From Chloroflexota bacterium (GTDB lineage: Bacteria > Chloroflexota > UBA6077 > FW602-bin22 > JAMCYS01), in NCBI GenBank assembly GCA_023473795.1, contig JAMCYS010000102.1, positions 1 to 35,497 of the forward strand: a stretch of DNA of 35,497 nucleotides, given 5' to 3'. A program made the position numbers and the translations under genes. A model generated the notes under the pieces. The model was not told the origin of the DNA, made no database searches, and worked only from the letters and a program-made list of their open reading frames with translations. Positions 18,938-23,370 of the stretch are shown here, one piece after another. Numbering within the stretch: position 1 is the first letter of the stretch; each line of letters opens with the position of its first letter.

Positions 18938-19372
18938 CTAGCCCTCGACGACGATCTCGTCGCCCACCCTAACCTGGCCGCCGTTCAGCACGCGCACGAA
19001 GATGCCCTCGCGCGGCATGACGCAGTCGCCGGCCTGGTAATAGATCGCGCAGTGGGAGTGACAGACCTTGCCGATCTGGGTGACCTCGCACTCGGTCGGC
19101 CCGAGCCGTAGGTGGGTGCCAACCGGCAACGATGGTAGATCGATGCCCTCGGTGGTGATGTTCTCCGCGAAATCGCCCGGACCGACCTGCAGGCCCTTGG
19201 CGCGCATTTTCTCGATGCTCTCCAGCGCCAGCAGGCTCACTTGGCGATGCCAGGGACCGGCGTGAGCGTCGCCGGCGATGCCGCTTTCGACCACGAATTC
19301 CCCTGCGCCAACGTTCTTCTTACGCATCCCCTTCTTGGCGCTCGTGCAAACGGCCACCACTCGTCCGGCCAT
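18938..19372 (-). CDS. MOSC-domain protein
   Basis: The 144-residue protein is a stand-alone MOSC domain, the sulfur-carrier or Moco-binding module also found at the C-terminus of eukaryotic Moco sulfurase. Visible features are VESGIAGDAHAGPWHRQVSLL, the block GDFAENITTEGIDL, and the region TQIGKVCHSHC, with the conserved Cys in KVCH. Its ATG follows the lspA-like TAG without a gap, so the two are coupled. Its place beside moaA and moaC supports a role in Moco handling. Confidence 0.92.
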   Translation of the reverse strand: MAGRVVAVCTSAKKGMRKKNVGAGEFVVESGIAGDAHAGPWHRQVSLLALESIEKMRAKGLQVGPGDFAENITTEGIDLPSLPVGTHLRLGPTECEVTQIGKVCHSHCAIYYQAGDCVMPREGIFVRVLNGGQVRVGDEIVVEG

Positions 19373-19900
19373 CTAGTAACTCCTCTTGACAACAGCCACC
19401 ACTTCCAGCAGCAGAAACACCACCGCGAAGTTGGGCAGCAGGTCGCCGAAATTGAAAATGGGCCAGCCCGCGATGTGCACGAAATCGAGCACGTACCCCA
19501 AGCGCACCCTGTCGATCAGGGTGCAGAGCAGGGGCGCCAGGGCAAACACCAGGAAGGCCTGCCCCCGCCAGCTGACCCCGAAATGCATCTCATACAGGCG
19601 GTAGGCGGCCAGTAGAACGACGATCAGCACCGCCCCCGAGATTTCCAGCGCCGGCACCAGCCACGGCAGGCCCTCTCCCAGGCCGCCCGCCGCGCCCCGG
19701 TTGGCCAAGTGCACCAGCCCCACTACCTCGCCCCACAGCGGCAGTGTCGTTCGCAGGGGCAGCGTGTGCTCCACCCAGACCTTCGCCGCCTGATCCAGAC
19801 CCACCAGCAAGCCCACGGCCAGAGCCAGGGAAGCGTGGGACAGCACCGGACGGGTGGCCGGACGCCAGGACGGGCGAGCGAGCGGTTCGTATGTGGACAT
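19373..19900 (-). CDS. lspA: LspA-like membrane aspartyl protease (signal peptidase II family), divergent
   Basis: The 175-residue protein has four membrane segments. The LspA blocks are recognisable: LDQAAK (D36), ANRGAAGG (N67, where the family has N-x-GAAFG), LIDRVRLGYVLDF (D139) and FNFGD (D153). The two likely catalytic aspartates, D139 and D153, are both present, but the GGALGN stretch before IDR is replaced by APLLCT. It may be the lipoprotein signal peptidase needed by the two lipoproteins in this window, or a specialised paralogue. It lies between moaC and the MOSC gene, with a 61-base gap upstream that carries its own -10 box. Confidence 0.82.
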   Translation of the reverse strand: MSTYEPLARPSWRPATRPVLSHASLALAVGLLVGLDQAAKVWVEHTLPLRTTLPLWGEVVGLVHLANRGAAGGLGEGLPWLVPALEISGAVLIVVLLAAYRLYEMHFGVSWRGQAFLVFALAPLLCTLIDRVRLGYVLDFVHIAGWPIFNFGDLLPNFAVVFLLLEVVAVVKRSY

Positions 19901-19961: not shown

Positions 19962-20453
<492 letters not shown>

Positions 20454-21452: not shown

Positions 21453-22472
21453 CTACCTAAAGCAGCCTAGCTGGCACATGGAAATGCGGATGCCCTCCTC
21501 GTTGGCCAGCTGGCCGAGTTGGCGAGTGCCCAGGCCCAGCTCGCGCGCCAGTTTGAAGGCGACCGGGCAGGGCAACTTGCCATTAATGAGCGATTCCCCC
21601 AGGGTGGCGAGCGCCGCCGCCCGCTTCTCTCCCGCCAGCGGTGGCAACGTGATCGTTGCCGGCTCGGCGTGCCCGGCTGGCCCCTCCTGCACGCTGAAGA
21701 GCGTATTCTCCTCGGCGAGCAGCACCGCTTCGACGTCGCGACCGGCAAGGTCGTGCAAGTAGTAGACGAGCTCGCGCTCGCCGTACTGCAGGTGGAAGGC
21801 GGTGGCGGAGCTGGGGCGCAGGCGGCCGTTGCCCAGCGTGGCCCCGGTCAGCGCCTGGATAGCGTCGGCCACGCGGCCGTCTACGCCGACCGTCGCCGCC
21901 AGGCCGGGCTCCCGCGCCGCCACGCCGAAGTGACGCAGGGCGTGGTAGACCAGGCGCACGCCCAGGGCCAGCTCGGCGCGGCGCTCGCCGTGGAAGTTCT
22001 CGGCCTCCAGCAGCAGCATCTCCAGCACCCAGCGGCTGTCCGACTCGTGCACGAACTGGGCGTCGCGGAAGCCAACGGCCGACCAGGCATAGTCCCAGCC
22101 CCGCAGCGGCGCCTTGAGGTCGAGCACCGCCGTGCCGTCCACGAAGTCGAGGCTCGCCAGATGGAGGGTGCGCCCCTCGACCGCCGTGAGCCGCGCCAGG
22201 CTGATGCCCAGCGGGTTGGGCCTGGCGGGCCCGCGCGTGGCGAAAACGCCGCGATTGGCGGCCTGTCCCTTGGGCTTGCCGACCAGACTGTCGCGTCGCG
22301 CCAGGCCCAACCAGGCGGTGACGCCGACGTAGCTATTGTCGGCCAACCCCACCAAGGCCGGCGCGAAAGGCTCGTAGACCTCGATCTCGGCCGGGACGCC
22401 GTGGCCCGGCATCCTGGCTGGGTCGGCGACGCTCGAGTGAACCACGCCTATCGGCTCGACGGTGATTTGCAT
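21453..22472 (-). CDS. TrmO-like domain fused to an FmdE-like domain and a CxxxC tail
   Basis: The 339-residue protein opens with a TrmO/TsaA domain (residues 1-135), which in its known form N6-methylates t6A37 of tRNA with SAM; the signature GVFATRGPARPNPLGIS is at 76-92. Residues 160-245 resemble FmdE (ALGVRLVYHALRHFG, DAIQALTGATLGNGRL), the accessory subunit of formylmethanofuran dehydrogenase, but the cysteines normally in GHLCPG, NDSC and LTGC are all replaced. The tail (295-339) has C302 and ends SMCQLGCFR, with C333 and C337. GGGAG before the ATG fixes the start. It leads a moaA-moaC operon behind an attenuator-like leader, so a tie to molybdenum or pterin metabolism is more likely than plain tRNA modification. 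Confidence 0.8.
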   Translation of the reverse strand: MQITVEPIGVVHSSVADPARMPGHGVPAEIEVYEPFAPALVGLADNSYVGVTAWLGLARRDSLVGKPKGQAANRGVFATRGPARPNPLGISLARLTAVEGRTLHLASLDFVDGTAVLDLKAPLRGWDYAWSAVGFRDAQFVHESDSRWVLEMLLLEAENFHGERRAELALGVRLVYHALRHFGVAAREPGLAATVGVDGRVADAIQALTGATLGNGRLRPSSATAFHLQYGERELVYYLHDLAGRDVEAVLLAEENTLFSVQEGPAGHAEPATITLPPLAGEKRAAALATLGESLINGKLPCPVAFKLARELGLGTRQLGQLANEEGIRISMCQLGCFR

Positions 22473-22502
22473 AAACGCTCCCGCCAGACAGATGTAATTC
22501 TG

Positions 22503-22531
22503 AGCGAGCGCAGCGAGCGAAGAATCTCCTA
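22503..22531. repeat. TTCTGAGCGAGCGCAGCGAGCGAAGAA-type repeat inside the operon leader
   Basis: A palindromic element around GAGCGAGCGCAGCGAGCG with flanking ATTCT/AGAAT lies between the terminator hairpin and the TrmO-FmdE start. Such elements recur in many GC-rich genomes. It adds a further hairpin 31 bases upstream of the ATG. Confidence 0.5.
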
Positions 22532-22586
22532 GCGCTCTTCGCGGCGAGAAGACTCTTCGGGCCGCCCCGCGGCCCTCAGAACGAGC

Positions 22587-22621
22587 AAAAGGAGCCGACC
22601 CTCCCTGGGGAAGGCCGGCTC
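22587..22621 (-). terminator. Leader terminator of the Moco operon
   Basis: On the minus strand GAGCCGGCCTTCCC and GGGAGGGTCGGCTC pair over 14 positions (two G-T pairs) around a two-base loop, then CTTTTG follows. It stands between the promoter at 22782-22810 and the first gene, so it must be bypassed for the operon to be expressed. Confidence 0.7.
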
Positions 22622-22650
22622 GGCAATAAGCATCCGATGGCCGGGCCTTC
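22610..22650 (-). promoter_or_regulatory. Antiterminator stem of the Moco operon leader
   Basis: GAAGGCCCGGC (22650-22640) can pair with GCCGGCCTTC (22619-22610), leaving one bulged C and a 20-base loop. The second strand is the 5' arm of the terminator at 22587-22621, so the two structures exclude each other. The leader from about 22775 to 22651 is free to act as a sensor. Confidence 0.6.
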
Positions 22651-22775
22651 TCCTTTCCGAACGCGGGCGGTCGGAGCGTTGCCACCCCGGCCGGGGGGAC
22701 GATGTACGTCCTTGACGGCCGCCGCCCCTACCACGAGGGCAGCTGCGACGGCTCGGAGAAAGGGCCCACTGAACT
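22651..22775 (-). ncRNA. Candidate sensor region of an attenuation leader (unidentified riboswitch-like RNA)
   Basis: About 125 transcribed bases lie between the predicted start and the antiterminator. They include a hairpin GGACG-TACAT-CGTCC (22711-22697), the GC-rich CCCCCCGGCCGGGG, and a GTTCGGAAAGGAG segment beside the antiterminator. I see no leader peptide with a good start. The downstream genes make a molybdenum-cofactor, molybdate or tungstate ligand the leading guess; no known aptamer was recognised by eye. Confidence 0.4.
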
Positions 22776-22781
22776 CGCCGG

Positions 22782-22810
22782 AGTATAGCACTGCCGGGCA
22801 GGCCAGGCAA
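22782..22810 (-). promoter_or_regulatory. Promoter of the Moco operon
   Basis: TTGCCT (22810-22805), a 17-base spacer and TATACT (22787-22782) on the minus strand. Transcription should begin near 22775, giving a leader of about 300 bases before the ATG at 22472. The remainder of this divergent gap, to 22995, shows no gene. Confidence 0.6.
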
Positions 22811-22995
22811 CAGCGCCCAGCGCTCTGCCCCGCGGCGCACGTCGGGTCCCGCCCCCGGCCGCGGTCCGTTCCGTGGTGCACAACGGCACGCCTGCCCAGA
22901 GCCGACTCCCTGTGGCCCGATCCACCGTCGCGTCCCCACGCCGACCGTCGCCAGCGTTGGGATTGCCACGGCACCGCTGGCGAAAGCAAGCCGCC

Positions 22996-23004
22996 TGCTA
23001 TACT
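22996..23004 (+). promoter_or_regulatory. Extended -10 promoter of the CMD-like gene
   Basis: TGCTATACT is an extended -10 box, about 33 bases before the ATG at 23038. The same TGCTATACT occurs on the opposite strand in the divergent promoter at 22782-22790. Confidence 0.5.
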
Positions 23005-23037
23005 TAGGACAAGCGACCGCTGTTGGAGAGGTGAAAC

Positions 23038-23370
23038 ATGGGCTACTTGCCGGACGTCTACCAGCACTTCAACCGCGACCATCCCGAATTGGCGCGTCTC
23101 TACGGCGAACTGGCGGACAAGTGCCACGAGGCTGGTCCACTGGACGACCGCACGCGCCGGCTGGTGAAGCTGGGCATCGCCGTCGGGCTCAATTCTGAGG
23201 GGGCTGTGCGCTCCCACACGCGCCGGGCGCTGGAGGCGGGCATTCCGGCGGCTGAGGTCGAGCACGTAATCGTGCTGGCGCTGACCACCGCCGGCTTTCC
23301 CACGATGATCGCCGCCTACAAGTGGGCGCACGAGGTCATCGAGGCCGCCCAAAGGCAGGAGCCGATCTAG
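23038..23370 (+). CDS. Carboxymuconolactone decarboxylase/AhpD-family protein without redox cysteines
   Basis: The 110-residue all-helical protein has the CMD pattern LVKLGIAVGLNSEGAVRSHTRRALEAGIPAAEVEHVIVLALTTAGFPT. The CxxC of AhpD-type peroxidase reductants is absent: the position reads SEGAVRSH, keeping only the His. So it is closer to the decarboxylase-like branch or a non-redox member. GGAG and AGAGGTG precede the ATG. It is transcribed away from the Moco operon. Confidence 0.85.
   Translation: MGYLPDVYQHFNRDHPELARLYGELADKCHEAGPLDDRTRRLVKLGIAVGLNSEGAVRSHTRRALEAGIPAAEVEHVIVLALTTAGFPTMIAAYKWAHEVIEAAQRQEPI

Follow-up and report, generated by a model that had tools for sequence, protein, structure and literature searches.

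A predicted Moco-family riboswitch with a terminator-type platform ahead of a TrmO-FmdE, moaA and moaC operon in a Chloroflexota bacterium

Which signal is read by the long leader of a molybdenum-cofactor (Moco) operon in a Chloroflexota genome, and how would that leader act on its genes? We analysed a window of 35,497 nucleotides, in which a preliminary description had proposed an attenuator-type RNA switch and had left its sensor as either a divergent Moco motif or something new. The match to the Rfam family RF01055, together with the promoter, the terminator and the competing pairings, supports a riboswitch of the proposed type. Our reading, to which we give a probability of about 0.9, is a Moco-class riboswitch with a transcription-termination platform that works as a genetic OFF switch.

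Leader, aptamer and operon

The promoter and the leader of about 300 nt that follows it were both located where they had been claimed, on the minus strand between 22810 and 22470 (Table 1). The promoter-like site is the only sigma-70-like site within 22400-23050, where shuffles give an expectation of 0.1, and its predicted start at about 22775 yields a leader of ~303 nt up to the ATG at 22472. This leader as a whole folds better than 200 of 200 dinucleotide shuffles (z -3.4), and the surrounding ~650 bases hold a sole terminator-like site, the hairpin at 22621-22592. The terminator stem with its CTTTT had been described with 14 pairs; it is present but one pair shorter, as a fourteenth pair would reduce the loop to 2 nt, and its tail is modest. 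A longer GTG start for the first gene, at 22685, was rejected: the gene would then extend across the terminator and the end of the aptamer, and homology begins at the ATG at 22472. The stretch from the terminator to the ribosome binding site (RBS), 22493-22585, belongs to a dispersed repeat, of which the genome holds three further related copies at 67-80% identity.

When the leader was searched with Rfam covariance models, the Moco model matched 22770-22636 above its cut-off, with 43.0 bits against a gathering cut-off of 36 (E 3.5e-7 for the whole window). The alignment covers model positions 1-135 of 135 and is the single RF01055 match across the whole 4.4-Mb genome. Among other Rfam families BjrC80 alone came up and was dismissed, as it scored 18 bits where the cut-off is 80. 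The aptamer, which the preliminary description had missed, lies upstream of the pairings noted there; its 5' end falls just past the predicted transcription start and its P1 uses the same segment, 22653-22643.

In the model alignment P1 closes the conserved multistem junction, CUCCGAGCC ... GGAAAGGAG, and there is a P3 stem of five pairs (GGACGUACAUCGUCC). The loop of P4 is GCAA, and a canonical tetraloop receptor (CCUAAG-UAUGG) was not found in P2 of the window aptamer. This fits the known pattern, in which a GCAA loop comes without the receptor whereas GAAA members carry it in P2; all four GCAA members in Regulski 2008 (PMC2408646) likewise lack it. The stems P1-P5, the junction, P3 and the control of moaA/moaC are also shared with the class as described there. 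Other RF01055 matches of the phylum reach 81 bits, and the score of the window aptamer is low among them because P2 and its receptor diverge. Of the two options for the sensor, the full-length match above the cut-off favours the Moco motif over something new: judged by its sequence, the leader sensor is an ordinary, well-formed Moco riboswitch and not a new kind of switch.

The aptamer sits ahead of genes for Moco, molybdenum or tungsten (moaA, moaC, MOSC and an FmdE domain). Pfam domain matches confirmed the operon with TrmO-FmdE, moaA and moaC; the gene run also includes lspA, and the MOSC-domain gene is probably its last Moco-related member.

Table 1. Coordinates of the leader elements and operon genes in the window
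Feature	Position	Strand	Basis
Promoter-like site TTGCCT-17-TATACT, extended -10 TGC	22782..22810	-	sequence scan
Predicted Moco riboswitch aptamer (RF01055), P1-P5, 135 nt	22636..22770	-	covariance model
P1 5' strand GGGCCCUUUCUCC	22755..22767	-	covariance-model alignment and folding
P1 3' strand GGAGAAGGCCC, also most of the antiterminator 5' strand	22643..22653	-	covariance-model alignment
Intrinsic terminator hairpin, 13 pairs, 4-nt loop	22592..22621	-	sequence scan and folding
CTTTT tail of the terminator	22587..22591	-	sequence scan
Shine-Dalgarno-like GGCGGGAG ahead of the ATG at 22472	22478..22485	-	sequence
TrmO_N-FmdE fusion gene, first of the operon	21453..22472	-	PF01980 77 bits, PF02663 37 bits
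moaA	20457..21449	-	Radical_SAM, Mob_synth_C
moaC	19962..20453	-	PF01967, 204 bits
Signal peptidase II (lspA), same gene run	19373..19900	-	domain search
MOSC-domain protein	18938..19372	-	PF03473

Molybdenum or tungsten cofactor as ligand

Regarding the ligand, the instability of Moco precluded a direct binding test in Regulski 2008 (PMC2408646), and as late as 2024 the exact metabolite of the class was reported as unidentified (PMC10845959). P3-bearing RNAs were found in the 2008 study exclusively with genes for MPT/Moco synthesis or for Moco enzymes (PMC2408646), and by this rule the P3 of the window RNA marks a Moco sensor. Unlike what the rule would lead one to expect, the host is rich in AFOR genes: its genome, rated 96% complete, contains 16 AFOR_C and 7 Molybdopterin (PF00384) matches, and the profile search gave 0 matches to MoCoBD_1 (xanthine dehydrogenase type). 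We therefore name both Moco and its tungsten counterpart as possible ligands, with a preference for Moco. An AFOR_C-rich inventory of this kind, spread over several contigs and lacking MoCoBD_1, is unusual where the sole Moco riboswitch carries P3.

The same counts could be taken to mean that the P3-bearing RNA is a sensor of the tungsten cofactor (Tuco), the pterin enzymes of the host being mainly of the AFOR family. We regard this as unlikely, although it is the most serious of the alternatives, since it runs against the exclusive link of P3 to MPT/Moco genes in 2008. Besides, moaA and moaC serve both cofactors, tungsten is not used by every AFOR-family protein, and a syntenic riboswitch that also bears P3 is found in a genome (G009) with 14 MoCoBD_1 and 7 AFOR_C matches.

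Competing pairings and mode of control

Going back to the Moco-class switch, the segment 22650-22640 pairs with 22618-22609 in the 5' arm of the terminator (GCCGGCCUUC) through ten pairs and a single bulged C, in exact agreement with the preliminary description. The energy of this antiterminator duplex is -20.4 kcal/mol, a value equalled by 15 of 5000 shuffled arms. Because the segment is largely the P1 3' strand, extended by three bases, P1, antiterminator and terminator are mutually exclusive. The shared strands thus bear out the idea of folds that exclude each other, and they couple the terminator-type expression platform to P1. In the nascent RNA up to 22606, before the 3' arm of the terminator, the P1-forced and antiterminator-forced folds have almost the same computed energy, -82.6 and -82.9 kcal/mol, respectively. 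In the full leader, P1 plus terminator gives -101.2 kcal/mol versus -96.3 kcal/mol for the antiterminator fold; at equilibrium the terminator fold therefore wins without ligand, and the ON state depends on the antiterminator being trapped kinetically.

In the mechanism that we propose, RNA polymerase would start near 22775 and transcribe the aptamer first. Bound cofactor, be it Moco or the tungsten form, would hold P1 closed and keep its 3' strand off the 5' arm of the terminator, so that the 22621-22592 hairpin could form and transcription would end near 22587; P1 stabilised by ligand would in this way favour termination. With no ligand, the P1 3' strand would move to the terminator 5' arm, and the resulting antiterminator would block the terminator and allow trmO-fmdE, moaA, moaC and the downstream genes to be transcribed. 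The cell would most likely stop making the cofactor enzymes once the cofactor suffices. We infer ligand binding, the identity of the ligand and the direction of the switch. The OFF logic agrees with the regulation measured in E. coli, which is also OFF, and with the occurrence of terminator-type platforms in some members of the class (Regulski 2008, PMC2408646).

The E. coli moaABCDE riboswitch shares with the window RNA the aptamer class, the target pathway and the expected OFF logic, but it appears to block the RBS, whereas the window RNA would use a transcription terminator. As some Moco RNAs, such as the one from E. coli, hide the RBS in P1, one could argue that control at this locus is translational instead of transcriptional. 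We consider this very improbable, because the RBS at 22485-22478 lies ~160 nt past P1 and >100 nt past the terminator, and the terminator stands directly 3' of the aptamer.

Relatives and the genes behind Moco riboswitches

RF01055 is present in 12 of 61 relatives and in 7 of 29 genomes of the class; across the phylum, 52 of 400 sampled genomes contain it (45/284 among those of good quality). G009, from the same order and another family, keeps the gene order riboswitch, TrmO/FmdE, moaA, moaC and YfhO-like protein, its TrmO-FmdE protein being 39% identical to that of the window. Its RNA scores 65 bits, with a GAAA loop on P4 and CCUAAA in the receptor position; here, too, the terminator arm pairs with the P1 3' strand of the same leader. 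In a region of 72% GC and with a score just 7 bits over the cut-off, the match in the window could be a GC-driven coincidence and the leader a plain attenuator with no small-molecule aptamer, but this is barely credible in view of the E-value over the window, the sole match in the genome, both conserved junction segments, the Moco-synthesis gene context and the 65-bit syntenic relative.

We also checked the Moco-class, terminator-type reading against the possibility that transcription starts downstream of the terminator. Promoter-like sites directly 5' of the aptamer are strongly enriched, occurring in 47 of 93 phylum leaders versus 4.3 expected, and the riboswitches of G007, G005 and G003 have the same TGC-TATACT/TATATT layout upstream. 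As for the pairings, a first phylum scan for contiguous antiterminator complementarity was weak (6.0 vs 5.6 shuffled) because bulged pairings are invisible to it, and it was redone with duplex energies. A duplex between P1 strand and terminator arm at p<=0.05 was found in 13 of 46 strict-terminator leaders, where about 2 are expected. When arms were swapped, strands paired better with their own than with foreign terminator arms (permutation p 0.019), the largest own-pair excess being that of the window pair (-9.3 kcal/mol); these p-values are indicative only, as related sequences were treated as independent. In related leaders, then, the competing pairings are kept despite different sequence.

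The other confirmed P4 GCAA loops of the phylum are those of G121 and G198, both without receptor; GCAA loops in G262, G108 and G381 lie outside P4 on sequence reading and were not counted. The G121 and G198 RNAs are 111-112 nt long Moco-family RNAs in which GCAAAGG replaces GGAAAGG, and they precede an AFOR gene. They may form a tungsten-type subgroup of their own.

In G030 and G042 the riboswitch is followed by a protein related to the C-terminal part of the window TrmO-FmdE (52% over 54 aa) and then by moaA, after which moaC and MOSC come in G030. There the C-terminal part is a separate 136-aa gene with two domain copies, located in the interval between riboswitch and moaA. Around ten Chloroflexota Moco riboswitches lie directly 5' of an FmdE-like gene, most of whose products contain the motif SRxHSHLCPRQILGVR (one of them Pfam-confirmed). 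Elsewhere (G019:C45:6400-12000) two Moco riboswitches share a strand at a distance of ~1 kb, and a TrmO-domain gene follows the first of them. The recurring position of FmdE-domain genes behind such riboswitches links them to Moco control, and fmdE has the look of a gene that recurs in Moco regulons. Regulski 2008 (PMC2408646) makes no mention of FmdE, and our literature search found no paper naming FmdE together with a riboswitch. What is least documented is that genes with FmdE or TrmO domains recur behind Moco riboswitches. A bolder proposal would be that the P3 aptamer of this AFOR-rich host, which lacks xanthine-dehydrogenase-type genes, responds to the tungsten cofactor or to both forms alike, P3 being an unreliable mark of molybdenum, and that the riboswitch-linked FmdE-domain proteins act in cofactor synthesis or metal handling; we hold it as speculative and would not expect it to prove right.

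Published work already covers the class, its platforms, the correlation between loop and receptor, and the presence of such a riboswitch in front of moaA-moaC in Chloroflexota, the last for Dehalogenimonas (PMC13390414, 2026), which has the phylum and the target genes in common with our locus. Unlike the window, the part of that report available to us mentions no leading TrmO-FmdE gene, nor does it describe the expression platform. In turn, Chloroflexota is absent from the group list of Regulski 2008 (PMC2408646), from whose examples our locus also differs in its first gene, TrmO-FmdE, and in a host genome that abounds in AFOR-family genes although the RNA bears P3. To this body of work, the locus contributes a Moco riboswitch of the terminator type from Chloroflexota that reads cleanly and whose three competing strands can be exactly specified. 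It is, moreover, a natural test case for the P3 rule of Moco versus tungsten-cofactor sensing.
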